A DNA stretch of 64,000 bases, taken from the NCBI GenBank assembly GCA_021234155.1, contig JAJEKV010000053.1, positions 2,836,077 to 2,900,076 on the forward strand, written 5' to 3'. The position numbers were made by a program, and so were the translations under genes. The notes under the pieces were generated by a model. That model saw nothing but the letters and a program-made list of their open reading frames with translations, did not search any database and had not been told where the DNA came from. Shown here one piece after another: positions 699 to 50,519 of the stretch; the stretch's first letter is position 1; the number at the start of each line of letters is the position of its first letter. This stretch comes from Isoetes taiwanensis. Taxonomy: Eukaryota > Streptophyta > Lycopodiopsida > Isoetales > Isoetaceae.

Positions 699-3139
699 AT
701 GCTAGCGGGGCGCATAGAAAAGGCCCTCGCTTCCGCTTCCTCCCCCAGGTATAAGTTTTCACTCTATTTTCATCTGAACGTTGGTCCATATTGTCCTTGC
801 TCCTCCTGTGCAGGGTTTTGGACTACCTGAGCAGTCTATGCAAGACAGGACGTTTAGATGAAGCGCTTGAGCTTTTGGAGCTGGAGCATATCCCCATATC
901 CCGAGACAATGCATTTTGCCTTCTTCAGCAGTGTAGCAGAAATAAGGACCTGGATAGAGGCAAGCGAGTGCAGTCCCTTATGGTCTTTGCCAAAATTGAT
1001 TCTGTTGAAATTCTGGGCAACCATCTTATTCGTCTATTTGCTTCCTGTGGATGTTTGGATGAAGCTAATCAAGCATTTTATAAAATTTTGCACCCAAGTG
1101 TGTACTCATGGAGTGCAATTATCTCAGCTCATGCTAATCTTGGGAGTGGTGCAGATGCCCTTCTTCTATATAGCAAAATGCAACTTTCAGGCATCAAAGC
1201 TGATAAATGTGTTTATCTTGCTGTTCTTAAAGGATGTGGCATGATAGGTGCTCTCCAACAAGGAAGGGAAATCCATCATCAGGTTCTTGGAAGTGGAATT
1301 GATTTTGATGTTGTCATTGGAAGCACCCTTATCAATATGTACGCAAAATGCGGAAGCTTAGAAGAATCACGTGATGTCTTGGAAGGTTTACAAACTCTGA
1401 ATGTGGTATGCTGGGGGGCCATGATTTCAGGGTGTGCAGAACATGGCGAAGATTTTCTTGCCCTAGATTGTTTTCAGAAGATGCAAAAGGATGGCGTTAG
1501 GGCAGACAAAGTTATATTCCTAAGCACATTAAAAGCATGTGGTCATATTGAATGCATTGAACAAGGCAGACTTATTCATGGACAGATATTACTGCATATC
1601 GTCGGATCTGATGCGGTTCTGGAAAGTACCCTTGTTGATATGTATGCAAAATGTGGCAGTTTGCAGGAATCACACAAAGTATTCAGAAACATGACTGTTA
1701 GGGACGTTGTAGCTTGGGATGCAGTTATTACAGGTTATGTACAGCACGATGAAGGGGTTCTTGCCCTGGAATCATTTCATAGGATGCAAAAAGAGGGCAT
1801 AAAGCCAGATAAAGTTACATTTCCAAGTATCTTGAAAGCATGTATCAAGAGTAAAGCAATTCAGCAAGGCAGAGTTATTCATGGTAGTCTTATTAGCCTT
1901 GGGCTTCAAGCAGATACTGTTGTGGGAAACACCCTTGTTGACATGTATGCCAAGTGCAATAGTTTAGAAGAGTCCTGTAAAGTGTTTGACAACTTGTGGA
2001 GTCGAGATGTGCTGTCCTGGGATGTAATGATTGCAGGATACGCACAGAATGATAGTCTTTTGGCTTTTGACTGCTTTGAGAAAATGCAATTAGAGGGCAT
2101 AGAGCCAGATAACTTCACATTTTCAATCATCTTAAAAGTGTTTGGTAGTTTAGGAGCTACAGGGAATGGTAGACTTATGCATGACCAGATCTTAAAACGT
2201 GGACTTGACTCTGATGTTGTTGGAAATGCACTTGTTGACATGTATGCAAAATGTGGTTGCCTAGATGAGTCAAGGAGAATCTTCAACAAATTGCTAAATC
2301 GAAACATAATTTCTTGGTGTGCAATGATTGCAGGGTATGCACAAAATGGTGAAGGCCTGCTTGCACTTGAGTGTTTTGAGATGATGGAAGAAGATGGCAT
2401 TAAGCCAAATGAAGTGGCAATCTCGAGCATCTTGACAGCGTGTGGTAATATAGGAGCCATAACACAGGGTAGACTAATCCATGAGCAAGCCCTAGAACTT
2501 GGACTTAATTCAGATACCATTTTGGGCAGTATCCTTGTTGATATGTATGCTAAATGTGGTGTTCTAAAGGAATCTGAAACGGTTTTTGACAAATTAGAGA
2601 GAAGAAATGTGGTGATCTGGAATTCAATGATTGCTGGATATGCCCAACATGGAGAGGCTTTTTCTGCAATAAATTGCTCTAAAAAGATGCAAGAAGAGGG
2701 ATTGAGACCAGATGATGTCACCTTTCTGTTGATCCTTGTTGCATGTGGTCGGGCAGGCTCAACAGATGCAGCTTGCTGGCAATTAGGAAATATGATTGAA
2801 CACCATCGCCTGTTGCCAGATTCAGAGCACTATAACTGCTTGATAGATCTTCTAGGGCATACAGGATGGCTGAAGGAAGCAGAAGATTTACTGCAACAGT
2901 GTCTGATCGAAACACCAGGTATCTCTGGTTGGATTTCACTACTTAGTGCTTGCAGAACGTTCTATAAGATGGAGTTAGGTAGGCGTTGCTTTGACGAAGC
3001 TACCTATTTAGATCCCACCACCCTCGCAAGATGTGCTTTTATGTCTAACATTTATGCAGATGCTCACATGCAAAAGGATGTTGACAAGATAGAAAATCGA
3101 AGAAGACGTGCAGGTGTATTTCATGACCTTGCTGAGTAG
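699..3139 (+). CDS. PLS-class pentatricopeptide repeat (PPR) protein with E-type C-terminus, two exons
   Basis: The long open frame runs to a TAG at 3137-3139, but it has no ATG near its 5' end. I join exon 1 (ATG at 699, through 748) to exon 2 (814-3139) across a 65-nt intron, giving 791 residues. Exon 1 supplies MLAGRIEKALASASSP, and the split codon AG|G encodes Arg before VLDYLSSL. Five MYAKC motifs, spaced about 100 residues apart (near residues 190, 290, 393, 491 and 593), mark PLS triplets. Linked GR.IH and W..MI.GYAQ segments support this. The C-terminus (GWISLLSAC to LMSNIYAD-like text) is an E motif, and the protein ends before any DYW domain. Known PLS-class PPR proteins bind single-stranded RNA in plastids or mitochondria, often for RNA editing; a partner would have to supply deaminase activity here. 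Targeting is not obvious from exon 1. A decayed paralogue lies tail to tail downstream. Confidence 0.88.
749..813 (+). other. Predicted 65-nt intron of the PPR gene
   Basis: The donor is CAG|GTATAAGT and the acceptor is a pyrimidine-rich TCCTCCTGTGCAG|G. The intron sits after the second base of codon 17. Retaining it would shift the ATG at 699 out of frame with the PPR repeats. The paralogue on the minus strand has a 64-nt intron at the same position and phase (6052-6115), which is strong independent support. Confidence 0.75.
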
Positions 3140-3870: not shown

Positions 3871-3974
3871 ACCTAGACCTCTGCTTTTATACTGAATTTG
3901 ATGGGCATAACATGCATATATGACCTAGACCTCTGCTTTTATACTGAATTTGATGGGCATAACATGCATATATG
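3871..3974. repeat. Perfect 52-bp tandem duplication
   Basis: Bases 3871-3922 are repeated exactly at 3923-3974. Each unit starts ACCTAGACCTCTGC and ends CATGCATATATG. The lack of any difference implies a recent event. The second unit overlaps the last codons and stop of the open frame at the end of the minus-strand PPR pseudogene. Confidence 0.95.
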
Positions 3975-6156
3975 AATATGAACAGTAGTTTAACCATCCA
4001 AAAAGTTTGCATAGATATAAAAAGTGTGCAGATGGAGCAGCACATACATATAAACATTTAACACCACATTCATTCTTACTAGATATCATCTTCTTGATGA
4101 AAGACATCCTCGCTTTCTTTATCCTGAGACATTTTCTAGCATCATCTTGTCGATATAGTTTCCTTTGAGAGTCAGCGTAGATGTTTGACATTAAAACGTA
4201 CACGGGAACATATTGTGGATCTAGGTAGACAGCTTTATCGAAGCAATATCTTCCAATTTCCACATTGGCATGCATTTTGCAGGAGTTAACTAAAGACACG
4301 CATCCTGTTGTATTTTGCTGACCAGTTGCTTGAAGGAGGTCTTCTGCTTCTTTGAGGTATCCGGCACGACCCAATAGATTAATCATGCAATTGTAAATGT
4401 CAATGTCAGGCATCATGTCTAAGCATGCATGCATATATTCAAAATACCAACGGCCTTCATCTACCAGGCCAGCATGATTACATGCAACTAAAACTGAGAG
4501 AAATGCAGTTTTGTCAGGCTGTATATTCTTTTGCATTTCCTCAAAGCACTTCATGGCAAGAAGACCCTCGCCATGCTGTGCATATCCTGTGATCATACTG
4601 GCCCATGAAACTATATCCTTTTCTTCCATTTTATCAAACAATTTCCATGCTTCCTCCAAACACCCACATTTGAAATACATATCAATAAGAGAATTCTCAC
4701 AACAATGTCTGAATCAATCCCACATTTCAAGATCTGATCATGAATGAACCTGCCTTGCTCTATGTCTCCTGTGTCACTGCAAGCTTTTACAACAGTTGCA
4801 AATGTGATTTCATTTGGCATTAACCCTTCTGATTGCATCTTTCTAAAGCAATCTATAGAAGATTTAGCTTCCCATATTCTATATATACGCCATAATCATT
4901 GTTCCCCAGGACACCACAGTTTGGTATGATAATGTTTCAAAGACTTTGCAGCATTGTTTCAGGCTATAGCATTTAGCATACATATCCATTAGAGTGTTTC
5001 CTAAAACAATGTCTGATTCTAACTTACATTTTAAAGCCACATGCTTTTAAGACGCTAGAGAATGTGAGTTTGTCTGGTGATACTTTCTCCAATTGCATTT
5101 TTGGAAATATTCTAATGCCAGACAACCTTCATCGTGTTGTACAAAGCTCATGATAATTGCATTCCAAGATACAACATCCCGGTGCTGCAATTCATGAAAC
5201 ACTTTCTGTGACTCCATTAAGCTACCACATTTGGCATACATATCAAGAAGAGTATTTCCCACCAGAACATCTGATCTAAGACCTTGTTGCAAAATGTGGA
5301 GATGAGTGAGCCTGCCCTTCTGTATGGCTCCAAGGATAGAACATGCTTTTAAGACGTTTGGAAACGTAACCTTATCTGGGTTTGTTCCCTCTTCCCTGCA
5401 TCTTAGCAAAGCAATCCAGAGCAAGGAAACCTTCACCATGCTGTGTATACCCTGCCATCATTGAATTCCATGTTACCACATTTTTGGTTGGCAGATTATT
5501 GAATATATTGCATGATTCCTTCCAAGCTACCACACTTGGCATAGAGGTCAATAAGGGAATTCCCAATAATAACCTCTGGTTCTAGGCTGCTTTCAATGAT
5601 CTTCAAGTGGATATGCCTTCCTTTGATGAAGAGCAGAAACTGTGGCACATGCTTTTAAAGTAGAAAGATAAGTATTTTTGTCATATTTTAAACCTAATTG
5701 TTGCATTGTAGTACATAAATGAATCCTGCTTGTCCAGCATTTCCATATGCTGAAATAACTGCACTCCATGTATACACACTTGGCTATGTGATTTTTCCAA
5801 ACGCTTGACTGGCTTCAACCAAACATTTACATGTCACAAACAACCGAATGAGATGGTTGCCCAAAACTTCCACGTTATCAAGCCCATATTGGGCAATAAG
5901 GTATTGTGCCGATCTAGTATATTCCACATTTTTCTTACCAGCGGACTGCAAAAGATTGTAAGCGTCATCTCTGGTTAAAAGCGATCCTTGTTGTCCGAAA
6001 ATGCTGGTTTCCTGCCCTTCCTTGCAGAATATGCTTAAGTTACCCAATGTCCTGTTATACACGTAGAGCGTAAGGGATCAACCTATGAAACGAAAACGAA
6101 CAAGTGGGCTCATACCTGCCCACTACCTTCTCCGTCCTTCGACCGTCTCTGAACAT
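3925..6156 (-). pseudogene. PPR (PLS/E-type) pseudogene, paralogue of the gene at 699-3139
   Basis: PPR homology runs the whole length on the minus strand but is scattered over several frames (about 5784-6051, 5372-5566, 5047-5439, 4611-4838, 3925-4680), so multiple indels separate the pieces. The N-terminal part (LLTRDDAYNLLQ, GNHLIRLF) aligns with SRDNAFCLLQ and GNHLIRLF of the intact gene. An in-frame TAG near 5783 replaces the codon before PSVY. Exon 1 can be read from an ATG at 6156 to 6116, followed by a 64-nt intron (6052-6115, GGCAG|GTATGAG donor), with the same phase as in the intact copy. The C-terminal piece keeps an E motif (LMSNIYAD) and then runs into unrelated residues. It is probably a non-functional duplicate of an RNA-binding organellar factor. 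Confidence 0.85.
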
Positions 6157-10969: not shown

Positions 10970-11500
10970 TTGAAAAAATTGGCAAAGTAAATGGAAAAAA
11001 TTGGGAAAATAATAATAATTTTAGCTTAACATTTTAGGGACTACACCAATCCCGAGATCTTTAGCCAAACGCTAGAAAGTAAGAGAGTGAAATTTCAGAT
11101 TGTTTAGCTAAACCATAGAAACTTTTAGAATGAATTTCTGCCAGTTTAGCTAATATCATTCTAGTTTATAAGAAATATATGATTAGTAGTTTAATTTCTA
11201 GCATGGTAAATTAATTTGAGTCATAGATTTTGCTAGTTAGCATTATTTAGAATATTTTCCAAAGAAAATGACTAAAATAATTGAAAACAGTTGAAAAAAA
11301 AAGTATAGTCAATTTGGCTTAATATTTTCTCATACACCCATAGAAAATCTTGGGATGATGCTAGTTTAGCTAAACGCTAGAAAGTATGAGAGGAAAAATA
11401 TGTAGAGTTTAGCTAAACCACAGAATGCTTTGGGATTAGCTAAAGCCATTCTGGCTAATAAGAAATATGCGATTAGTAATTTATTCCCTGATGCACATAT
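10970..11500. repeat. Diverged ~305-bp tandem duplication
   Basis: Two direct copies with a period of about 305 bp. The anchor ACGCTAGAAAGTA occurs near 11,069 and 11,374, each followed by AGAG, GTTTAGCTAAACCA and AAGAAATAT.GATTAGTA. The copies differ by many substitutions and small indels, so this is an old duplication. It is AT-rich with no coding content. Confidence 0.75.
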
Positions 11501-11529
11501 AGTGATCTCTTGTTGGTATGATACCATAC

Positions 11530-11710
11530 TCTTCTTATCATTGGCATTATCTTATCTTATTCGGTAGCCTTTTAATATTTAGTTATTGTGTTTGGTGATG
11601 AGGCCTAGTCCCCGTGTTTTAGATGGGTTGTTGTTCTTGCAAATGTTCCATAACCCGCTTGGGTTCCCGTGGACGTAAAAATTTATCTTATCTTATCTTA
11701 TCTTATCTAT
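11530..11710 (+). mobile_element. 3' end of a non-LTR retroelement with (TTATC)n tail
   Basis: The segment runs through GGTAGCCTTTTAATATTT, TTTGGTGATGAGGCCTAG and GGGTTCCCGTGGACGTAAA into a short TTATC repeat. The same series, in the same order, is found on the minus strand at 32,076-32,330 and in degenerate form at 38,470-38,597. A shared unique 3' UTR ending in a simple-repeat tail is typical of a LINE or its non-autonomous derivative. No coding part is present, so this copy is strongly 5'-truncated. Confidence 0.7.
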
Positions 11711-12338
11711 CATTGCATTAAAAAGAACTAGCCCTCCAATACCAAAGTTGAAGGTCTTAAACTGTTCGATAAAATGTGAGACCTTTATGTCACAAAGAAT
11801 GACTTCTATGCTCCATAAAGTGTTGATAAAAATGTCATGAGCTCAAATATTGTGGAGTTCAATGTGAAGTATCTTCCGAATAAAACCTTTTCCATTGCAT
11901 GTTTGGCAATATTAAACATGCAAAGAAGCCCCCAAAGAATTGTAACATGATCATGGAACCAGAATAAGCATGCATGTGGCTCTATACAAGATGTTCTAAT
12001 TATGAAGACATAGCCCACGTAATGAATGTGCTCATGGCCTTCAAGTATCGCTTTTGATGTTAAGATATAGGTCTACGCTTAGGTCACGTTAGTCTGGCCA
12101 TCCGATTACCTATAACATAAAGAATAGTTTAAAATTCTCTAAGGGGAGAACTTGCTATTACATGAGAAGCCCATGGGAAGTCCGGGTTTGAATAAATGCA
12201 TTATGCACTCCCAACTCATAATCAAATCTCACGATGCAATGTAAAGTGGTTGGGGCAGGGGCCCCATTAAGCAATGTAGTGTGTTGTGTGGTCACATGCC
12301 CAAGTAGATGGTGCCTAGTGGCGTGACTTTTAAAACAA
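11711..12338. other. No recognisable gene
   Basis: Unique AT-rich sequence. Its last ~50 bp (GGCGTGACTTTTAAAACAA) resemble the motif before the CTAT run at 529 and probably belong to the retroelement tail that follows. Confidence 0.5.
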
Positions 12339-12439
<101 letters not shown>

Positions 12440-12785
12440 CATTCATAGCATAAATATCTGCCAAAATCACAAATGCTTGCAGCTCCTGCTTGATCCAAGT
12501 TACAAAGATGGGAAATAATATTCTCTGCTTGCTTGATAATATTATAGATTCGACATGCATTAAGCAATGATATCCATGCCCCGGCCATTAATAATAATGG
12601 AAATGTATGCAAAACATCCTCCTCAACATCTATAAGACCAAATTCTAAAAAATGTTAACCATACAAGCATAATGATCCTCCACCAGAGTCACTCCATATG
12701 TAGAGTGCATCAAAACAAAATGATGGTAGCCATAACCCACTAAGTCTCTGTGGCTCCAAGCATAAAGAATACCATTGAATGTTTT
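12440..12785 (-). pseudogene. Fragment of a PPR gene C-terminus (last repeat plus E motif)
   Basis: On the minus strand, frameshifted pieces read in order as the end of a PPR protein: an ILYAWSHRDLVG-like match to the usual LSACSHAGLV, then YGVTLVEDHYACMVN (usual YGI.P..EHY.CMVD), then AWISLLNACRIYN, then AENIISHLCNLDQAGAA, then FVILADIYAMNG in another frame. That is the canonical order leading into the E domain. At least two frame changes are present and no upstream repeats can be found, so this is a truncated relic. It is a more diverged sequence than the pair at 0.7-6.2 kb, hence a third PPR lineage. The left edge lies directly against the CTAT array. Confidence 0.72.
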
Positions 12786-34849: not shown

Positions 34850-36562
34850 TGTTACACGCAACATCCTAAGTAGAATTGAAAAACGATTGTGCATATCAAC
34901 CCATTTATGCCCATTGGTCTAGTAGTAATAATAATTAAATTTGATGGAAAGCCCAACCATTGGAAGATTATTTTGTACCTATTATACTTCTTTAGCTCTG
35001 TATATTGCATTGGTTATGGTGCATTACTAGTCAAATCAACTAAGATGAATAAAGAGAAGCACGTTTAACACATTGTATTTCATAATAATACAAAGGTAAA
35101 AGACAAAATGAAGACATCTAATATTTTGAGATATATTTTGGTCTCCTACTTTTGCTTGTCTTGATGCATCATAGCTGAAGAGTTTTAGACAAGGAATCAA
35201 TAAAGGAGGCATCCACTATCATCTTTGAAGAAAGCAATACTTACATGTAAAATATGCAAAAAGAGCTATTAGCCTTTATAATATATATAGATTGATAAAT
35301 AGATACATTTCTTTAACTCCACGAGAATGTATGATGAGTATAATTGTATATTAATTAGTTCAAAAAAGTCAAATTCTGATCAATTTGTCGACAACACACG
35401 GCAAAATATACCACTCAAGGCATGTAGCTCTTGGAAAGGCACCTGAGAACATTATTCATCATGTACATGCTTAAATGCGAAACAACCCTAAACCAAGCTC
35501 GCAAGCCTTTAACACAGAAGCAAACTGCCCAAGAGCATTACGAACAGACCCCTCAACAGGATGAGGAGTGAAACGCATATATTTCTTCATAGAAGGTAGG
35601 CGGGCCGGTCTTAAAACCTTTTGGAAAACTCTTAGCGGCAACCTCGTGATCCGGTTCGGGGATGAATCATGCAATCGTCTCCAGACTTGCCAATCGGCCA
35701 GGAGTTGCAACATCAAATCTTGGCAGTGAGTTGTAGGGAATCAAACACGAATTATTTCCTCCATATTTACTGCTTTGTAGTAGCGGGGATAAAGAAGAGA
35801 AAGCTTGAGCTTTTATTGGGGCCTATGATAAAAGCGCCCCTTCTTTGTTAATGCCTCTCCTTTTGTATCTTTCATTGAAGGATCTATCATCCCAAACTTG
35901 CTTGCTAGCTCCCTCGCCTTCATCCGCTATTATAGGATGGTTTACTTTAATCCACGGCATGTAGGCCTCTATGTCCAGTATCCATGCCTTGTGTGATTCT
36001 ATTGAATTGCATTTCGGTGCCAACACTTTCACCCCTCTCTTCTCAAACTCGGCATATGCTTTGCCATTGCTGCAAGCTTCGGTTATGCATCTTGGTGTGA
36101 AATCATCCGGATGTGAGAATATTATCACCCGCTTTTGTAGATGTAGTCATAGAAATCTAGCATCCCTTGTGTTGTTTTACGCTGTAAATCTGGAACTTTG
36201 TCACCCAATTGTAGAACCATTATGCAAAAGAATATAAGAAGACTTGGCGGTTGCTTCTACACAAAAATCGAGCTATGAGAGAGAAGCCAACTAAAACAAG
36301 TCCTTAGAGAAAACTAGTTACTTGATGGTCAATCTAGCAAAAGTGTGTATTACAAGAAATGCGACCTCTGTATTGGGATTATGCTAGCCTTGATCAACCC
36401 AGACTGTCTCAGTTTTTCATCTGGGGCTATTTATATGCATCAAGAGCAGCCGCAATTGTTGCGACCACCGCCGCATTATTTAAGAAGCCGCCATTTGGTT
36501 GATTACTTGTTTGCTCCAAACATAAACTTCTAAAGCTTCTTATTATAGTGTAGTATGATTTC
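34850..36562. repeat. Segmental duplication copy B (empty site)
   Basis: Direct counterpart of 30,730-33,515 without the retroelement insertion. The uninterrupted insertion site is GAGCTATGAGAGAGAAGCC at about 36270. The right edge extends through ATGCATCAAGAGCAGCCGCA to a shared CTTATTA.AGTGTA.GTATGAT. Confidence 0.88.
35471..36220 (-). pseudogene. 1-Cys peroxiredoxin (PRX6-type) pseudogene, copy B
   Basis: The ATG is kept at 36220 (MVLQLGDKVPDLQ). It is followed by TTQGMLDFYDYIYKSG in another frame, then FSHPDDFTPRCITEA (the peroxidatic Cys is present but the usual VCTTEL is altered), EFEKRGVKVLAPKCN, ESHKAWILDIEAYMP and VNHPIIAD. The C-terminal part keeps DDCMIHP, ARLPSMKKYMRFTPHP and a tail ending QFASVLKACELGLG. 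It has frameshifts and stops, different from those in copy A. Like copy A it lacks introns, which suggests that an mRNA-derived copy was duplicated as part of the larger block. Confidence 0.85.
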
Positions 36563-38597: not shown

Positions 38598-38619
38598 GCT
38601 ATAGTGCTGCAATTGATAA

Positions 38620-39990
38620 ATGCTCTTCTTTGTAGAATACAAGCATAAAAAAAAGAGCTTGAAAGGACTGCGAAATTGTGAATTTCAATCAAAGAAACAC
38701 TGTGAAAGGTTAATGCAAATACCTATTTTTAGAAGACTTCGCATGGTTAATATGTTACAGGCCATCAAGTTGTTAGGGATTCCAGTTGGCATCCATGTTA
38801 CTATGGGAGCTGCATAGGAGGAGATCATTAAGGGTTTGGAGAAGCACTTGTTCTGGTGGTCCATCGCAAAGTTGTCTCTTGCGGGCCGCATTACAGTGGC
38901 CAAGTCAGTCCTTAGTAGTACCCATGTTTATATGGCATCCATACTGCTAGCCCCACGAATAAAAATGCATTGAGCTCATTGCAATAGTTCGGAACTTTAT
39001 ATGGGGGGGTACTGAGGAAGGTGCCGTGATTAAGGTGGCGTGGTCGAAGTGCATCCTTCTCAAATGGGCAGGTGGTCTGGGTATGATGGACTTCTTACTG
39101 CAAAGCAAAGTCCTTATTTCAAAGTTCATTTGGAGACTCTTGAATGGTGAAGATGATTCTCCTGGTTTACGCCTTCTTAAACAAGCTCTTAGTCACTGTA
39201 TCCCTCTAGGTAAAAAAGCTGTCAAACCAGTCCTATCTTGGGCATTATTTCAGACTCTGCATCCTTTTCCAAGTGCTTCTCCATTTTTGCATGGCTTGTT
39301 GACAGCATGAGAGGCAATCAAACATCGTTTCTGGCCATGCCCCTCCATTCACACCCATATTGGAGACTCCATGGTGGTGGGCACCACTGCCTCCAGACCC
39401 CTCAGCACCTCCACTGGCATCATCAGTTCATCCCTTTACACAGAGACGATGGGTTCTGGCAGGCGTTGTCTCTATTCAAGCATGGTATGAAGCGGGTCGC
39501 CTACTATCTTGGCCTGAATTTCAGGCAAAGTTCTTGCTCTCTCGTTGGGATGTGTCTCTATGGGTGAAGGTCGCAGAAAATTTGCCTCTTGTAGTGCAAG
39601 TTGATATTACTGAAAGAGTGCCATGAGACTCTCATGAAAATATTCACAAAGGCAAGCACTTTGTCAGATCAGTATATCGCCTTCTTTCACCACAGCCCCT
39701 CCAGTTGCCAGATGGGTGGCACCTTCAGGTTCCACAACACACTTTATGTCGTACATGGCGATGGCTTTGGGATAAGTTGCTCCACCCTAAAGTCTCTGTA
39801 CTACGATGACAGGTTATCTACAGATGCCTGCGCGTTAACGCCTTCCGACATCGCTATGATCCTCGCATGTCTGCAGTATGCCCGCTCTGCCTTTCAGCCG
39901 TTGAGACTCTTGAGCACTGCCTCTTTGATTGTCCAGAGGTTCAACCAGCGTGGTCCTAGCTACAAGGCTTGTTTAACAGTACATTGGACT
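38620..39990 (+). pseudogene. LINE fragment: reverse transcriptase thumb and zf-RVT domain
   Basis: In shifting frames the plus strand reads AIKLLGIPVGIHVT, LEKHLFWWSIAKLSLAGRIT, VAKSVLSSTHVYMASILLAP, IVRNFIWGGTEEGAVIKVAW, LLKWAGGLGMMDF and SKVLISKFIWRLL. Then, at about 39,660-39,957, come VRSVYRLLSP, WRWLWDKLLHPKVSVLR, a TGA, RCLRVNAFRHR, CPLCLSAVETLEHCLFDCPE and PAWS before a TAG. That last part is a clear zf-RVT domain hidden in a frame with no long open stretch. The RT palm is missing, so the copy is 5'-truncated. The 3' end is lost or joined to foreign sequence near 40.0 kb. Confidence 0.85.
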
Positions 39991-40033
39991 GAATTGCACT
40001 TTGAGAAGTTGTTATATTGCATTCTTTTGACAT

Positions 40034-41283
40034 CTAAAAAATGCTTACTCCAGAGCTTGCTAAAGGCTGATGTGAAATCTTGTCCACACCCATTTCCTCT
40101 AAAAAATTGTGGATCATTTGTAAAATCACTTTTTGTGTGAAATATGCAGGCAACATTCGAAATACTTTCCTGCACCCCTCTTCATCAACCGCACTTTTGT
40201 GAGGCATACTCTCAGCATGATAGTTAATAAACTTCTCGAATAAATTCTCTGAGCTGCAAGCACCCTGGGGTTGTCCTCGCCTTTCCCCGATTACCATGCC
40301 AATCTAGAGCTGATATACCTAGTATGGTTGTCACTGCAGTGCTGCATATCCATTTCCCACCAATCGGAAATCTCCTGTTCCTGACATCAGATGATGGCTT
40401 AAATGCATGTTCTATGATATTGTAAATATAAGTTTTTCTAGCGTCATGAGTTTTCTCCTTGTAGATTGATCTGGCTTCCACAAGTTCTTTCACTGTGAAT
40501 CTACCAAAGTAGTTGTTGGGGCCGCCACAATCCCCCCTCCCCCCCTCCTCTAATGGCTTGCATGGTCTCTTCAATGCAGTTGTTAGTATCTTTCACAGTC
40601 TGAACCTTTTCCTTCCTCTTCTTCCTCGTCAAGAAGTTGAAGGCCCTCTTTCTGATATGGATACATCCATAGGAGGTATGGAAGGAATGTCATTTTCATC
40701 CACCACCACATTATTTTCTCCAACACGCTCAGTTCTTTGAAGCAACCCTTTTCCTATTATCTCGATGGAGTCTACTGGCCAGAGCAACAAGGCTGGCAAC
40801 TCTAAACCACTATTGATATTATTGCAAGCATAGCAGTATTTGTCCTTCAGCTCAACACTGAAGTTATGAAGCTGTATTGAAGAAATGGAGACTCCCACAA
40901 AGTCATCACCAATGAGCCTGTCCATTATAGTAGTGCATGTAATCCCATAGTATAAGCACACCTTCACCAACAATTCCTCTATTGCACTGATGATGCAAAT
41001 TCACTTTCCCATCCTTTCATATTAATCTGGAAACCACTATTCTTCTTTTATCATTAGCACCAGCTGGGTTTTTAATAGTTTCTGCATTTGGTTCAGGTGG
41101 CTGCTCATTCTTAATTGCATTAATCTCTTCCACATTCATGTAATCAGCATCATTCTTCTCTGCTCGAGATTCTTGGTTACAGGGTTCCTCAGCACTAGCT
41201 TCATGAGAAATTTGAAATTTAGAAGAAAGGTTGAGGAAAACATAGTATTGTATGCAATAACAATAAATGAAATATTTAGACAA
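40034..41283 (-). pseudogene. Decayed transposase-like gene (LGIS motif region)
   Basis: Minus-strand frames at 41017-41283, 40629-40973, 40224-40574 and 40034-40297 read like one broken protein. The most telling piece has FTVKELVEARSIY, then FPIGGKWICSTAVTTILGIS, then AESMPHKSAVDEEG and LPAYFTQKVILQMIHNFLEE. The G..VC..AF...LGIS plus GE.MP....LP...K..V order resembles the region in front of the DDE domain in a group of eukaryotic transposase-like proteins (DUF7869-type). I cannot see a DDE core here. The upstream part has an acidic, Asn/Glu-rich stretch. Family placement is an inference. Confidence 0.4.
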
Positions 41284-41290
41284 TGCCTAC

Positions 41291-42540
41291 ACCACGCTAC
41301 GCGCGACAGTGCGCGCAACACGTATATGGATAATAATTGTATGAAATACACATAAGAAAAAACATAATAATTTACCAAATACAGATATGTTGTGCTAGGC
41401 GCGACTCATACAAAAGTATCCAATATTTTTGTTTGTAATATAACAGGTCCAGACACATCAGCACATATCCCATTTCGTATTTGCTGAATCAGTACATCAT
41501 TTCGCCATTCCAGCTCTGCAGTATTTTTTGCTCAATGGGTTACCAAACCGATTTGGTGCATGTCAATACTACCAATGGAGTTCATGTCCACGAGCGAGGC
41601 TTGGCCTTGAGCCTCACCAAAGCCCGGGACAGGGCACTTTATAGAGATATCCCGAAAGCCACCCCATTCAGGGATTTTCAGATTGGTCCACAAGTTCGAC
41701 CATCTCCTCCCTGTTTTTGAGGAGAGAGATGGATGTGGAAGTGCAGTGCAGCAAGTGGCAGGCTTAGCAGAAGCCGAGTTCAATGCCCAGATAGCTGAAG
41801 TAGTCCTCCATGCAGCTGCATCAATTGGCATTACCTTTGTTTTGAGCCATTTCTTAGTCCTAGAAGCAGGACAAAGAAATTTGTTCGAGAGTCTAAGGAA
41901 CTACCATTTAGGATTGCTGGAGGCCAAAATGAGGCTTTTATAAAGCTATGTTGCATAAATGTTTTGAAATAAAGAATTTTTACTTACACAATTTGTCAAC
42001 TCAAGCATGTGTTATTTCTGGTTCTCGCACTGAGCGTGAGTCATTTCTTCTCGTGCTGAGCATGAGAAGTTAATATGGTTTTCTATAAAACACTTTTAAA
42101 TATGTTTCGTTTCCCATATCTAAATGTGTTTTATAGAAAATCATATTAACTTCTTGCACTAGGCGCGAGCAAATTGTAGTTTGTTAAAATTAATTTCTTA
42201 TAAAAGATGTTATGTCAGTACACTATACTCAATGATGTAGCTAGTGAGATATATAGATAATGAGGATGTTTACAGAGAGTGATTCAGACTACTTAAGGAA
42301 ACGAGACATACCTAAAATAGTTTCATAGAAAACCATATTAACTTCTCGCGCTAGGCGCGATTGAACTCCAGTTTGTTAAAATTCATTTCTTAAAGGAGAT
42401 TAGATTTACTGTACATATTACATGTAGTTAATTAACGCCAAAAAAAACTACTACAAAGTACATACAGGTCAGTACACTATACTCATTGATGTAGCAAGTG
42501 ATATATATAGATAATGAGGGTGTTTGCATTGAGAGACAGC
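41291..42540. repeat. Palindrome-rich block with inverted and direct repeats
   Basis: It contains five variants of a GCGCTAGGCGCGA-type palindrome (near 41295, 41394, 42030-42062, 42155 and 42347). The segment 42049-42105 (CTCGTGCTGAGCATGAGAAG, then TTAATATGGTTTTCTATAAA) is inverted at 42115-42170, forming a hairpin of about 55-bp arms. The right arm and its downstream flank are repeated directly at about 42310-42540 (CAGTACACTATACTCA and GATATATAGATAATGAGG shared). A frame at 41683-41943 (plus) and its antisense have no known motif. Confidence 0.75.
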
Positions 42541-42601
42541 TTTGGCATTTCAAGCTACAGACAAAATATAACAAATGAACAATACCAAAGAAGTTGGGAT
42601 G

Positions 42602-43327
42602 TCACTTCAAATCAAGTTCTTGCCTGGGTGTAGGCAATTTTTTATTCAACAAGGAAAAACCATGGCAGTTACAAAAGAAGAGGACCATTCTTTCACCAAC
42701 CAGGCTCATCATGGGCAGGTGGCACGTCACGCTCTTAACTTCATAAACACCATGCTCTGGAACCCATAGAAGGTGGATGACAACCCTATATATATCAGGA
42801 TAATTTCTAACAGAGGCCATTGCAACTCCCTGCAGCCAAGGATCGAGTTCCAAGCTCCTTTGCAGGCATCTATAAATTTCAGAATAGTTCATGTAGCAAA
42901 TGATGAAATCCACATATTCTGGAGCCGGTGGCAAGGTTTGCAATTAGAACAGGATGTGATCAGATTGCGGGATATGACTAATGCACTGCCACTGAGAGGA
43001 ACTCATATTTATAGCATGAGCAATACAGTAGCAGCATTATTCTGTAGACATATGAGTATGCATGTGAGTAGCACATGTAAAGATGACACGAGAAGTATGC
43101 TATAATAGCTACAATAAAGAGCAACAATGCTACAGTAAAATTTTAGTACATACCTCTCTGAATAGTGTTGTTAGCCAAGCCAAGAAACTCCCTACTGATT
43201 CTCCAAGTGTTTCTGCTCCTGCATGTGGTCTTCGTAATAGATGAGTGGCAGCAAAGCAATCTATCAATCTAATTCTAATATAATCAGGTCCAAAGGGCAC
43301 TCCATGGCATGCTGTAGTTGGTGCCAT
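42602..43327 (-). pseudogene. Unrecognised broken gene, two exon-like pieces
   Basis: The upstream piece (43327 to about 43150) starts with an ATG, MAPTTACHGVPFGPDYIRIR, and ends at a clean CAGAGAG|GTATGTAC splice donor. The downstream piece (42943-42602) reads EYVDFIICYMNYSEIYRCLQ and VVIHLLWVPEHGVYEVKS. No acceptor gives an unbroken join, so a frameshift or an unseen exon lies between. It lies on the same strand as the transposase-like frames at 40.0-41.3 kb and may belong to the same element. Function unknown. Confidence 0.35.
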
Positions 43328-44678
43328 ATTATCAACAATCCCTTGTCAATTACATCTTTCCTGTTTTTTTCTAACAAGAAGCATGCTTCTCCAATGGAAA
43401 ATTTCATTTCTCCTACTTGATTGCTCATTTCCTCGATCTGCAAAGCTTTCTTAATTATGTTGCACTAGTCATGGCGCCACAATCCACTCACTTGATAGAA
43501 GAACTACCTGAGATATGGCAACCTGATCCAGCGCTTCAGCAAGCTTCCTTCTTGGCGACATCCCTAACTCGAATTAAAACAACAGTAATGAAAACATAGT
43601 TCTTGTGTTTCTCTAGGTGCGAGGAGAGAAACACAAATTCCATGATCCAATCTTGCGACCAAGAATGCAAATAGCGGGCATTTTTAAAATAGAAAGTTAG
43701 TACCGGCCAATGATTGAAAAGCAGTTGGGGAAAGGGATATTCGTGGGCGAAAGTTTTTTAAATTTTAAATTGCGGGCAGGATTAATTTTTTTATTTTCTT
43801 GAAAAGTAATAAGGGTACTATACGGTTTTAATGGCGAGCATCTATTCATTAATTTTGTACGACCCGTGTTGTTTTTTAATTTCAATCGAATTTGAATCTC
43901 ATTTTCTTCATTCCTAATTTCTTCCGCAACGTTTTGCTTCGAGAGCGCCTTACTTTCCAATGCCTTTGTGTTGAGCGATCTCTCAATCAAGCGAAATTTC
44001 TCGACCACTACTTTCAGTTCAAGGTATCCTACTTCATTTTTGGCCTGTTTACAAAAATACCAGTTCAATTTGAGCTTTTCTTAGTAATAAGCTGCACTCG
44101 AGCTTCTAAAGTTGTAACAGAGCTCAATTGCAGTTTCTAGAGCTTCACCCACTTCGATGTGGCAACTAAAGGTTAGTATGTTCAAGTTTTTAATATATTA
44201 GAAACTCTGTGACTCTGTTTTTAATAGGTTTTAGAAACTTTTTGATTGCAGTGCTTAACTTTATTAATAGATTTAGAAACTCTGTGACTCTGTGATCAAC
44301 TCTGTAACTCTGTGACTCTGCAACTCTGATTTTATTAGATTATCTCCTTAACTTTGTCTTTATTGAAATATCTCTATTGCCCTGCATCTCTGCTTCTTGG
44401 CCTATCTTTGTTTGCAGCTTAGTCATGTAATCTACTGCAATTTCAATTCCAAGTTCTTTGTTTGATTCTGTGTTCAGGGTTTTCTGCTTAGTCTTGCTAA
44501 GTGAATCTGCAATGCTCTGTGATTATAATTCCTAGTATCTTAATCTTCAATTTTAATCATCAGAGTCAGGGAAGTGGGCTATGCTTCCCTGTGTTATGTT
44601 TTTCTTGTTTTAGGAAGCATACTCTCTTTAATATTTTTCTATGTTAAGCCTTCTATGGAGTGCCCTCGGTCTATAGAC
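43328..44678. other. No recognisable gene
   Basis: About 1.35 kb. Minus frame 43697-44068 and plus frame 43892-44140 overlap and match nothing. A ~160-bp stretch near 44,200-44,350 has several copies of AACTCTGTGACTCTG, a loose tandem repeat. Confidence 0.45.
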
Positions 44679-45154
44679 TTCTCGTGCTTAGCGCGAGAAG
44701 TCCATATTCTATCACTCTTAGTAGCATAAGTGTAGGGTTGTCCTTCGAGCTGCGCTACACATGAATCAGGAAAGATTGCAGTGCTAATAAATCCTTATAG
44801 ACCATTTAAATATTTCATATGGTTCGACTTTGGTATAATAAGCTACATATGTTTGAAATGTAGATTCATGTGTGATATGGATGGAAGGTTCACTGGCTTT
44901 TTGTGTATTGTTATGTTACTCTTTTTTCGGATTCGCGCGTAGCGCGAGTCGAGGTCATAGTCGAGGTCAACCCTACGACAGGGCACTAAGAGAGATGGAA
45001 TGTCACTTCTCGTGCTAAGTCACATTCTATCTGTAGCTCGAGAAGTCACATTCCATCTCTCTTAGTGTCCTAAATCCTTCGACTCGCGCTACGCGCGAAT
45101 CTGGAAAAATTGCTCTCACAATAAATCTTTATAGACTTGTCGCGCCACGCGCTA
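44679..45154. repeat. Long hairpin with GC-rich palindromes at both ends
   Basis: TTCGCGCGTAGCGCGAGTCG at about 44932 is matched in inverted form by CGACTCGCGCTACGCGCGAA at about 45080. Inside them, CACTAAGAGAGATGGAATGT (about 44984) is matched by ACATTCCATCTCTCTTAGTG (about 45048), and CACTTCTCG by CGAGAAGTC. The two arms span about 44930-45010 and 45039-45101 around a ~30-base centre. A further ACTTCTCG...CGAGAAGT palindrome lies at 44679-44700 and a CGCGCCACGCGC one at 45140. The block sits just upstream of the broken gene at 45,199. Confidence 0.8.
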
Positions 45155-45198
45155 GATGTTGGTGCAAGTTGCTTACTTAACACAAAAATATTTCAGCA

Positions 45199-48100
45199 AT
45201 GGCTAAGTTGGATATTTGTTTTACAGCTTCCAAGAGATCACTAGTTACATCAACTACTACACCCACAAAGAAACTCAAGAAGGACCCCAAGGTAGTACAA
45301 GAAGAAACTAAGGAGATAGATCGGACTCTTGGTATCAAGCTAATTGATGATGGCAGAGTCATAACATGTGAGCTAAGTCAAGACTTGCCAAAGACAGTTT
45401 TACCTGAGGGGTCTGAATGATATGTTACTATGAGCAGGGCAGGCTCAAAGTATGACGTAGTCCTACATTCAAGGGAGAACAAAGACGCGGCCCTCAAAAA
45501 AGTAGGGTTGGTCCTTTCATGCGAGGAGCTTGATGACGAGATCTGTGTCTTCATAATAGAGAAGACTGTAAAGAAGAATCTCAGCATTTCCAAATACAAT
45601 GCAGGTATAGACGGATTCAGACTAGATAAGACAACAGACGATGTTACAAAGTATGGCTAGCCCCTTCAAGGCTCACACCATACAATTCGTTATGTATGTG
45701 AAAGAGTGTTCGCAGTCCGACGAAGTTTGCAGAAGAAACCATCTTCAAGCTTCTACATATTTGGTTTTGGTAGTAGTGGCGGTGCACTTGAATCAGAAAC
45801 TTTGGCCTTAGTATCTTTGCCAAAGCCAGTGTGAAACGTATATTGAAAAGAAATCGAGGGTTGATGCTGTAGACAAGCTTCTGAAGTTCAAGCAATGGTA
45901 TCCACTTGGTTTGGACATAACAAAAAGGATAGCCATTGACAAGTTGATAAGATCTCCTAGAGCATCTTTCATATCTAGGATCTTTGATCCCAAACATGCC
46001 CTGAGGATACAGAAGTCCATGGTTGAATTTTCCACCACAGCACCAAATCTAGTTGATGTTATACCATGGGACTCAGTCAATGACAAGCCACGCCCATGGA
46101 AGACATGGGATGACCTAAGGAAGAGCGACACGGTACACTACATAGTCATTGACAGACAACACTCAGTTGAGGCGCGAAAGGCGCTTATAGAGAAAATGGA
46201 TAACAAGGAGTACATGGAGCACTTCAGTTATAGGCAATGTCGAATCCTTAATCATTACACACCTCAACTTGCACTGACTACAATAAGTGCAGACTTGAAC
46301 ATAATTGCAAGGGTGGTACAATACAATAAGTGACTTTATTTCTTATTCTGCAATAATCAACTTCGCTCATCGCGGCGAGGCTGCCGATCCAACATTGGCT
46401 GCGGTCTGGGTACATAACACGCAATAAGTTTTTATTATCTTGCTTCAGCATTCTCGCGCTACGCGCGAAATGGATATCTACATGGTACTAACTTATGGTT
46501 TTATATTCTTATCTCAGACCATATCCCATGCAGTTGAGGCAAGCTAGAAATCAATAGATTGAGCAAGAAGAAAGACACCTACGAGGAAAAGATGATCAGC
46601 AAGTCATCATACAAAAGAAAAATGATGTTGCGGAGGAGGAAGAGGAAACTTGCACCAAGAACAAAAGTCCAAGGAAGGCCCCTCTAATTCCTACCACATA
46701 GTCTTCAGTCATGATCATGTGTGGGACAAATGGAATGAGGTGTGGAACAAGTGGACAGCAGGAGAGCTTGTAGGAAAAGTAGGGAAACCTGAGAAAGGAT
46801 CCCTTGATGATTTCTGATCCTGAGACTTGAGGAGTGCCCGGGGTTAAGGGAAGAAGAAATTCTCAAGGTGCTCCAATCTGTTATAGAAGGACAGGTCTTT
46901 GTGAAGGTCTAAAAAATCAATGATGTACCATCCTTTCCAGAGGCCTGCAAGTCCATGAAAGACCACCCGTGTCATGAGGCCGGCCATCTCAAAGGAACTC
47001 TTTGAGATGCCTGGAATAGAAAACCTATCTGAGCAAGGCATCTTGGACATGATAAAAATAACTGATGAAGACCTGCTCAGGTACTCAAAGTGGTTGCCTG
47101 GATTTATTCAGGCATATAAATCCAGGAACAAGGAAAAACCAGCCCATCTACCATCATTTGGAGCTGAAGTGCAGAGTCAGTTGGGACTTGGACATTCACG
47201 GGCTGTCTCAAAAAGAAACCTACATGGTGAAGTCTTGTCGGGGTTCTGCAGTTTGTTGCCACCCGGACCCAAAGGCGACTTTATTGTTAAGTGGTGGTGT
47301 CGAACATACCCTCAGGATATAGACTACTACATCTCCATGCTCTCAAATTGTCTCAAGCGGACCATAGAAGAGTACATCACACTTGTGTTCTTATGCGAAC
47401 CTCTGAGAGGAATATCCAAAGATCTTGCGGGCCACTACTCGGGGTAGAGGCCAATATTGAGTGTCGCATGCACGGGGTGCTAGTAGATGGGATGCACCGC
47501 TAAGAACAATTATGTCACTCATGGCATAACAATGATCACTTACGTGATCATAAATAAAATGTTGAGCGTGGTTTCTGAGGCACACAAGAGTGGCCCCAAA
47601 AGCTTCTGGCCGATACTCGGTTCTGAGAGAAGGAGAGATTGGGTAATTACCAAGCTTGGACCGATGAGCTTACCTTCAACCCTGCCGGGAGGAATGTGAG
47701 AAGGAATTCAAGGCAAGTGCAATGAACAAGTCTGAGACCACAACATGGAGCAAAAGCCAAGTAGAAAGCCAAGTTAAATCGACCATAACATGGAGCAAAA
47801 AATATCTTCATAAAAATATACATGAGACCTTAGAGGTGATAGAAGGATTTCGAGGAAGAAGCGGATATGTTTGGTAGATGATGACCCGGATTAAGTGTTG
47901 CTTGAGCGTGGGCGGACATAAATCCTCAGACATGGCACCCAAAATAATGTAGATGAAGAGAATTGGGTGTCAACAAAATACTATAGATGTTTGACTCCCT
48001 CATATCAGCCCCTCTGATTGCACCTTTCACGAGTAGTAGACCCGATTTGCAAGGAAAAAGTAAACCTACGGACTATGATCAGGTTGTAAAAATTCTTGTT
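45199..48100 (+). pseudogene. Decayed mobile-element gene with ParB/sulfiredoxin-like motif
   Basis: A start at 45199 (MAKLDICFTASKRS, then a basic KKLKKDPK) runs to 45660 with one internal TGA at 45418. The frame then shifts, and 45911-46333 continues as KQWYPLGLDITKRIAIDKLI, WDDLRKSDTVHYIVIDRQHS and VEARKALIEKM, ending LALTTISADLNIIARVV. The VIDRQHSVEARKAL string resembles the VIDG.HRV.AA..L motif of ParB/sulfiredoxin-fold proteins, and the later ISADLN recalls their N-box. A likely intron, GGGTACAT to TTATCTCAG (about 46409-46517), carries one GC-rich palindrome. Downstream frames (46974-47447 with EEYITLVFLCEPLRGIS; about 47700-47877) show coding continued to about 48.1 kb. Many breaks make it inactive. 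The ParB assignment is an inference from motif shape. Confidence 0.45.
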
Positions 48101-48159
48101 AATGAAAATGTACTCAGTTGTAAAATACTTGTATGTGTACATAACTTATATGAATATAA

Positions 48160-50519
48160 AAGATGTTTTTGATGCAAAACTTAGTTTGGCCTTGGCTCTT
48201 TCCAGCATACACTCTACTTTTTGCCTTGGTTTTGTTGTCACTAATTTCTAACACACTCAATAAATGGTGCAATATTGCCACCAATTCATTTTCAAAAAAA
48301 AATACAGGACGCAATTTCTTGCTCAAAACATACGGAAAAAAACCCAGGTAAAAAAATGAACAGTGGAATAATTTCAAAATAACGGAATCGTGGTTAATAC
48401 ATAATGCACTCAACAATTTCAATAAGCTAAGGTATAAGTAGTACACTCAATTTATATTCAATTATTGAATACCATTACCCAAGGTATTGACCTTGCTCCT
48501 ATTCATTTGTTGGTTTCGAGACTCTTCCTTTAGCTTTGATCTTGTTATCCTGGAGTCCGGTGTGGATTATATTCCAATCCACATGGATGATCACAGTTTG
48601 GCTGTTGGTTAAGTTTGTCTAGCTTTATTTTTCTTGTACAGTTTGTGTTTCATTTTGTGAGTTTTTTTGTTCTTATTCCAGGGTACTTGTTAGTAACTTC
48701 TTGTTTAACGAGGTTATGATGGAAGTAATGAAGGCGCACAAGGAATGTTAATCATCTAGTCTTGAGCTTAACACCATCTCTTATAAGCTTAGAGATTGAT
48801 GCCTCCCACCCCGATTCACGTGTTTATCCTTCTGAACTAGAGCAAGTATTCAAGAATTTGCTTCAAATGTGATACAAATTGGTACTGAAGCCCATAGGAT
48901 AGCTGCCTCTCTTTGCATGATGAGAGGACAATCTACTGGTTTCTTTTATGACATAGATTCTGTCATGTCTAACATGGAATAGGAATAGATGGGTATGCCA
49001 GTTTCTGAACTCTATACTTTGAGGTCCCACATGAGCCTTGCAAGGCTTTATTGATCCAAGAAATCCGGCGGGTTGACTATGTGATTAGACATGCTTGTGA
49101 TCGGGCCCATCCATGAATTAATGTTTGATCTTGTTGATTTTGTGAACCTTAAGTTGATTGAAGGAATTGTTTGAGTGCTTGTCAACTACATGATTCTTTT
49201 TCTGATTTGTTGAATGTGAATAAGACGATTTCTGATTCTTCTGCTTGTAGATTATATGCTTATCGTATGTACATTTGTATTTATACTAACAGATCTGAAC
49301 TTTCAGCCGGCTACGAGCCCTGGATATAGCAGTTATCCCTTGGATTGGGAATTCTACTATGCGCGGATGATCATGGGTATCGTGCTGTAGTTCAACTCCC
49401 CAAGTTCACTGATGGTTTGTTAAAGTTTTGTTGAGTCATGCCTTTGCTATATCTGATGTCGCTGAAAGCATGGGTGTTTTATCACATGAGAGTTGCTAAC
49501 AGAATGCTCAAGCTCTCATCGACATCAGAGATATCCTCGAGGTAAGTCCCGAGCGTTGAGTTCTAGTTGGAGTTCAATTTCCCAACCTCGCTTAGTTTTG
49601 GATTGATGCGGTGCATCAGGTTATATGATGTTCAATTAGATTTTGGAATATTGTATTGTATCAGGTTATATCATGTGTGTTGTATCAGCCTTGCAAGATA
49701 ATCCTTGGGTTTGGGTTTTTAAACAATTGGGTCAACTTGGAGCAATCTGACCCCATCTTGACTCACAAGGGATGAACTAGAGGGTAATTTATAGACTATT
49801 CTGAGAAATATTACATGATCTGATGGCCACAAAAATTCCTAATATATAGTCCACGATAATACACACATGTGCAAGCATGTTTAAGTTATAAATGGGTAGT
49901 TCGCATGGTTAATTTAATCTTAGCTGTAAAGTACATTTATAATAAGTGGCTAAGAAAGGAGGCCCGTCCATTATATCAAAATTATGGATTTGGTTGATAT
50001 AGGAGGTCCATCTGTTACATCAAAATTGCAGATTTGGTTTCACTCCATCAATGGGATAGATGAAATATTTCTGATTCATTCTATCGCGCCGATATCTATC
50101 CGGAAGGTCTGATCTGCATAAATTATATGGATTAACATGCGCCTTTTTTCCATTCCTGTTCTTATTGATTCTTGTATCATGGGCCTTTGCATAGTCTAAA
50201 CCATTGTCTTAGTGTAATTTATAATTTGTGGTTAATTCCTGGTTAACAAAGTAAGATAAAGATTTTTTTCTAGATTTGAGCCCAGTTGGGTGAAACGAGC
50301 TAATCCTAAGGATTGGTTTTAGTTTTCTTATCTACCTTTCTTACTAAAGAGCTTAGAGTATTTGCTTAATTGTAGTACTCTCATAAAAAAGAACCCGAGC
50401 GTGTTCTATGTTTTTTAGCTCCGTAACTTCATACGTTTTGAATCTAGCTAATATTCTTGAAGGAATATCCCTGATATATCTAGACCTATTATATGACTAA
50501 TATTTCGCATGTGTCCAAC
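48160..50519. other. No intact gene; short coding-like trace near 48,842-48,985
   Basis: Mostly AT-rich. At 48842-48985 one frame reads IQEFASNVIQIGTEAHRIAA, then SLCMMRGQSTGFFYDIDSVM, and then two close stops with a coding-like continuation. I do not recognise it. No open frame longer than 60 codons exists from 48.5 to 50.6 kb. Confidence 0.45.

Follow-up and report, generated by a model that had tools for sequence, protein, structure and literature searches.

A decayed two-strand DNA transposon of Isoetes taiwanensis with a ParB-like gene, a phosphatase remnant and family-specific palindromes

Related systems

Among the closest described counterparts of the Isoetes taiwanensis element discussed here, which occupies positions 39,993-48,395 of a 64,000-nt window (the whole stretch analyzed: assembly GCA_021234155.1, contig JAJEKV010000053.1, forward-strand positions 2,836,077-2,900,076), is the 21.5-kb Ectocarpus element Sola1-1_Ec32, in which the gene for a protein with ParB-like and methyltransferase parts lies opposite the Sola1 transposase (PMC12477816). 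The excerpts of that report drawn on here also point to comparable proteins in transposons of green and red algae, with the suggestion that such proteins bind the transposon encoding them and modify it (PMC12477816). Because the Ectocarpus element has been reported, the pairing of a transposase with a ParB-like protein is already known in algae; what is new here is the phosphatase and the family-specific palindromes. Like Sola1-1_Ec32, the Isoetes element is a DNA transposon with its ParB-like gene on the strand opposite the transposase, and like the green and red algal transposons it represents ParB-like accessory proteins in eukaryotic transposons; unlike Sola1-1_Ec32, as the excerpts present it, it gave no methyltransferase match in the nine ORFs searched and carries a NIF-like phosphatase downstream (PMC12477816).

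A second comparison is with DndB, a ParB-superfamily DGQHR protein of phosphorothioation systems, which controls its own operon and whose promoter contains the TACGN10CGTA palindromes that it binds (PMC4507180, PMC10853773). The likeness to the Isoetes protein lies in the probable superfamily and a DGQHR-type motif, the binding of own-promoter palindromes being DndB's feature; the DndB systems, in the portions of these reports used here, differ in being bacterial, in their palindrome and in having no transposase (PMC4507180, PMC10853773).

In the open-licence literature, for which part of the matches was viewed, we found nothing that describes the transposase/ParB pairing for land plants, a phosphatase as its partner, or palindromes specific to such an element, and DUF7869 and a transposase were not found together in the literature searched. 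In the bacterial plasmid systems ParB-parS and SopB-sopC a ParB-family protein is accompanied by clustered palindromic sites. The Isoetes element resembles these in having clustered palindromic sites in the same locus as a ParB-like gene, and differs from them in that neither a ParA-like ATPase nor a role in DNA segregation is known for it. A phosphatase now joins the accessory genes known from large transposons, and DUF7869 is placed in a transposon with defined ends. Binding of own DNA by the ParB-like proteins of eukaryotic transposons has so far only been proposed, to judge from the excerpts at hand (PMC12477816), and the family-specific palindromes give a concrete and cheap test of such a protein's role.

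Extent, ends and genes of the element

We are nearly certain that window positions 39,993-48,395 represent a single DNA transposon, now decayed, with genes on two strands. The first-pass annotation of this DNA had described decayed coding remnants on both strands of positions 40,034-48,100 and suggested one large transposon type; both proposals have held up, with the extent corrected to 39,993-48,395 and a right terminal repeat ending at 48,395. Both coding strands are broken across 40.0-48.1 kb, where the 8.07-kb region holds two open reading frames (ORFs) of at least 160 aa as compared to a mean of 0.05 in 300 dinucleotide shuffles (an ORF of at least 173 aa is present in 6 of the 300), and DNA homology to less decayed copies, sought in the 1.66 Gb assembly, covers 39,993-41,932 and much of the remaining element. 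The parts of the element are as follows.

39993..48395, no strand: the decayed DNA transposon, which has lost its left end and terminates on the right at 48,395 (copies c1101 and c908 are homologous from 39,993 on, c908 until 48,395; right terminal repeat found)
39993..40361, minus: N-terminal part of the DUF7869-type transposase (tblastn with the c908 transposase, residues 1-138)
40629..41000, minus: open frame, probably one more exon of the minus-strand gene (ORF list; probably the same gene)
42602..42943, minus: open frame, probably an exon of the minus-strand gene (ORF list; presumptive assignment)
43151..43573, minus: first coding part of the minus-strand gene (57% identical to c908; adjacent donor-like GTATGT seen by eye)
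45487..45831, plus: N-terminal part of the ParB-like protein (81% identical to c908)
45833..46327, plus: ParB/DGQHR-like domain (86% identical to c908; profile comparison; low dN/dS, the ratio of nonsynonymous to synonymous substitution, between copies)
46330..46517, plus: probable intron with a palindrome (GT..AG in the sequence; beyond it the frame continues with PYPMQLRQARNQ, like that of c908)
46656..47156, plus: middle part of the plus-strand protein, of no known family (28% identical to the d1078 protein, E 4.8e-18)
47774..48091, plus: remnant of a NIF/FCP1-like phosphatase (45% identical to the c908 segment that matches PF03031, E 2.5e-6)
48364..48395, minus: right terminal inverted repeat, reading AACCACGATTCC... 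inward (terminal repeat comparison)

The comparison embraced 12 sequences, namely ten 20-kb copies, 14 kb of a further copy (e1067) and the window. Four of them retain both ends (c908, 9,315 bp; d1027, 13,714 bp; d1066, 13,944 bp; d1078, 12,472 bp), and in all four the terminal inverted repeats begin AACCA, with 29 of the first 32 bp matching between the termini of c908 and 29 of the first 31 between those of d1027, d1066 and d1078. Each of the four is flanked by a 4-bp target duplication (GTAA in c908; AATA, ACAA and ATGG in the others), and in each the terminal repeats and duplications enclose both genes. A 4-bp target duplication is also a feature of the Sola superfamily, which the Isoetes element shares. 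The first-pass annotation had looked to copies encoding both proteins within shared ends and target duplications: c908 is such a copy in length, ends and duplication, but it is not fully intact because its plus-strand gene is internally deleted. In the window the left-side homology to c908 and c1101 ends at 39,993, and the window copy is without its left end and the conserved later part of the transposase. A plus-strand fragment at about 38600-39990, read by eye and presumably LINE-like (long interspersed nuclear element) from its reverse transcriptase and zf-RVT-like motif, stops near the start of the transposon homology.

The two coding blocks also occur together elsewhere. A search with the ParB-like ORF gave at least 154 matches at E <= 1e-3 (150 of 3,022 first-look candidates scored) and one with the transposase piece at least 150 matches (150 of 3,076 candidates scored). 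When the two blocks were used as paired queries, as had been suggested, in the plant's own genome, at least 37 of the 150 listed ParB-like places had a transposase piece within 20 kb, as compared to 0.54 expected by chance. These 37, which include the window, a duplicate of it and one ParB hit split in two, comprise 35 opposite-strand pairs, 34 of those with the transposase piece upstream, and 30 pairs lie at 4-14 kb. The duplicate (copy C1084; G000:C1084:2422044-2442043) is 95.6-98% identical to the window locus including its flanks and lies on another contig, being either a segmental duplication or an uncollapsed haplotype. The ParB-like relatives include family c, to which the window belongs, and a group that shares about 40% identity with it and has open frames of up to 408 aa, which the alignment of copies divides into d and e, mutually about 55% identical; the partial e1067 sequence has the same two-strand arrangement of transposase and ParB-like protein.

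That the minus strand is transposase-like, as first proposed, agrees with the 483-aa minus-strand ORF of c908, which matches Pfam DUF7869 (PF25273) at E 3.5e-40. DUF7869 is a Pfam domain without a curated function, and we infer that the protein is a transposase from the ends and the target duplications. The best family match of the window's own pieces, Herpes_U26 for the minus-strand frame at 40629-41000 (E 0.005, below the curated cut-off), was taken as chance.

The plus-strand protein very likely holds a ParB-superfamily domain, as judged by profile comparison. The window's VIDRQHS corresponds to VIDGQHS in c908, and DGQHS is present in 28 of 36 aligned rows, the other eight, the window's included, deviating. 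Profile-profile comparison of the family alignment to ParB/DGQHR gave a probability of 93.3% (E 2.8e-7), a score reached by none of 100 motif-keeping column shuffles; comparison with classical ParB alone was weaker (46.8%), and that with DGQHR alone recovered the motif only. No curated family threshold was passed by the domain. Below threshold, DndB was matched by 6 of 19 family members (best E 0.002; best score 17.7 bits against a cut-off of 29.1) and DGQHR by 4 of 19 (best E 0.05). For the window sequence alone the HMMER signal is that of the motif only, 206 of 2000 motif-keeping shuffles scoring equally well; among the 725 window ORFs it ranked first with the DGQHR profile (E 0.036) and second with the combined profile (E 2.4), and was unmatched with the classical ParB profile alone. 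Thus the proposal of a ParB-like protein stands by profile comparison, but a predicted structure of the domain (predicted local distance difference test, pLDDT, 61.5) had no ParB chain among the structure matches listed, and a single-sequence model of the segment (pLDDT 37.7) gave no Foldseek match at E <= 0.001. The predicted strand/helix order fits what we take to be the ParB core. Between copies, dN/dS of the domain was computable for 16 of 19 pairs, being 0.05-0.30 in 13 and 0.40, 0.51 and 0.86 once each, with some of the low values resting on near-saturated synonymous distances (>=2); we read this as constraint on the ParB-like gene between subfamilies.

At the right end of the element in two families, c and d, lies a NIF/FCP1-like phosphatase frame. 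The right-end ORF of d1027 matches the NIF family (PF03031) at E 1.4e-15, and the scores of d1027 (57.8 bits) and c908 (27.7 bits) are above the curated cut-off of 21.8. NIF-like pieces are present in 7 of the 12 sequences (the window, c908, c1060b, c1084, d1027, d1066 and d1078) and were not found in c1101, c1025, c1081 and c1077, nor in the partial e1067; the PDB match of the phosphatase piece, to UBLCP1, was no better than E 0.023. Neither this phosphatase (47,774-48,091, plus strand) nor the family-specific nature of the palindromes described below is in the first-pass annotation. Among the Pfam matches of the nine ORFs searched, which have incomplete reading frames, there was no methylase family. 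Searches with the broken pieces of the window itself gave nothing above curated cut-offs in Pfam, NCBIfam, PHROGs and PDB, and PDB sequence searches gave nothing useful for the element's pieces.

Family-specific palindromes

The hairpin-forming repeats noted at first are real and local: they are palindromes of 15-21 bp, common inside the element and nearly absent from its flanks. In the window's family c the palindrome is TCGCGC-N3-GCGCGA, in the second family, d, it is TCACGC-N3-GCGTGA, and e1067 has a third variant, ACACGC-N3-GCGTGA, with five sites at two or fewer mismatches. All ten sites with at most two arm mismatches in the 64-kb window lie within 41,292-46,468, and a scan with a related consensus gave 14 matches as compared to 0.28 expected. 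The window sites, none assigned to a strand, are as follows.

41292..41306: palindrome TCGCGC-N3-GCGCGA, 2 mismatches
41390..41404: palindrome, 2 mismatches
42025..42039: palindrome, 2 mismatches
42051..42065: palindrome, 3 arm mismatches, all CpG transitions
42154..42168: palindrome, 2 mismatches
42346..42360: palindrome, exact arms
44682..44696: palindrome, 1 mismatch
44933..44947: palindrome, exact arms
45084..45098: palindrome, exact arms
45140..45154: palindrome, 1 mismatch
46454..46468: palindrome, exact arms, within the probable intron that follows the ParB-like exon

CpG transitions account for 11 of the 16 core mismatches in these 11 sites, the decay expected of methylated DNA. Longer inverted repeats of 120-190 bp, with local duplications, surround the palindromes at 42050-42169 and 44922-45109.

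With the C1084 duplicate excluded, and with five partial c copies delimited by how far their homology reached and not by their termini, the seven c copies including the window hold 37 c-type sites with at most one mismatch in about 51 kb of element versus one in about 89 kb of flank; for the d-type palindrome the three d copies have 25 such sites in about 40 kb of element versus none in about 20 kb of flank. Cross-type counts were three d-type sites in c copies and four c-type sites in d copies, as compared to 0-0.05 in shuffles. Among 59 control palindromes with permuted c arms the best count was 9, given by the motif itself in shifted form, followed by 0; among 119 with permuted d arms the best was 2. 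Because the copies share descent, the strongest point is not the raw counts and instead is the difference between families at corresponding places. In the d copies palindromes stand near the start of the ParB-like frame and after it (d1027, positions 11222-12695 of the joined copy), those after the exon forming an array in which 17 of 23 steps are 32-35 bp, a layout that recalls, by analogy, the partition-site arrays of plasmids. From the reading frames, the places occupied by palindromes would be introns; one site, located where the d ParB-like frame begins, may extend into coding sequence.

Mechanism, alternatives and neighbouring sequence

Taken as a whole, the locus is probably explained by a two-strand cut-and-paste transposon with a ParB-like protein that may recognise its own palindromes. 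The DUF7869 protein would cut at the terminal repeats and insert with a 4-bp stagger, while the ParB-like protein would bind its own family's palindromes within the element, as DndB and ParB do in their loci, and once bound might autoregulate the divergent genes or gather the element DNA into a complex. Relatives of FCP1 act on RNA polymerase II, and the phosphatase may act on host transcription. We favour self-recognition of element DNA because DndB binds palindromes in its own promoter and because a ParB-superfamily protein and family-specific palindromes share one element; by this analogy the ParB-like protein may bind the palindromes, a step we propose with some reserve. More tentatively still, we speculate that the element bears a ParB-palindrome module whose protein and arrays have changed in concert from family to family. 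This would be the eukaryotic equivalent of ParB-parS or of DndB and its operator, and with the FCP1-like phosphatase may couple self-recognition to control of transcription or chromatin.

Alternatively, the palindromes might be bound by the transposase and not by the ParB-like protein, serving as internal enhancers like the subterminal repeats of other plant transposons. Transposases often bind repeated sites in their elements, the palindromes vary by family as do the terminal repeats, and the d copies have a half-site-like TCACGCC close to their right end; the full palindromes, however, sit well inside the element, with none in the 60 bp at each end of the two-ended copies, and we consider this explanation unlikely. 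To the same degree we doubt an origin of the palindromes as small foldback insertions, or as hairpin repeats, that spread through non-coding parts of the element and have no bound protein. Several window sites do sit in the longer inverted repeats (42,050-42,169; 44,922-45,109) and among local duplications, but the single c-type site in about 89 kb of flank and the different motif that occupies the corresponding stretch after the ParB-like exon in d, at its regular 32-35 bp steps, argue against such a spread.

It is decidedly improbable that the ParB-like segment folds as something unrelated and has its VIDGQHS motif by chance: the lack of a ParB chain among the structure matches listed and the motif-only signal of the window sequence point that way, but the family alignment was never equalled by its shuffles, the below-threshold matches of the family include DndB and DGQHR, and the predicted order of strands and helices fits what we take to be a ParB core. 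A remnant of a large DNA virus is suggested by the palindromes, the ParB-like gene and the presence of several genes on the two strands, all of which resemble viral features, but we give this very little credence, since viral contigs held no relative of three window pieces or of the ParB alignment, and 4-bp duplications with terminal repeats suit a cut-and-paste transposon; viral contigs also held no exact full palindrome, a phage search gave one match at E 8 and a plasmid search none. The least credible reading, two unrelated elements adjacent by chance, could appeal to the truncation of the window copy beside the LINE-like fragment and is already contradicted by the 34 upstream opposite-strand pairs among the 150 listed ParB-like places and by the four copies whose terminal repeats and target duplications enclose both genes.

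One further feature lies within the element:

41595..41931, plus: fragment which we take to be OPA3-like, also in c908, c1081 and c1101, with no Pfam match

This fragment is possibly a captured piece of a host gene. Elsewhere in the window, an open frame at 35823-36146 on the minus strand presumably resembles a 1-Cys peroxiredoxin, and long open frames at 755-3139 (plus strand) and 3925-4713 (minus strand) carry motifs that we take to be those of pentatricopeptide repeat (PPR) proteins.

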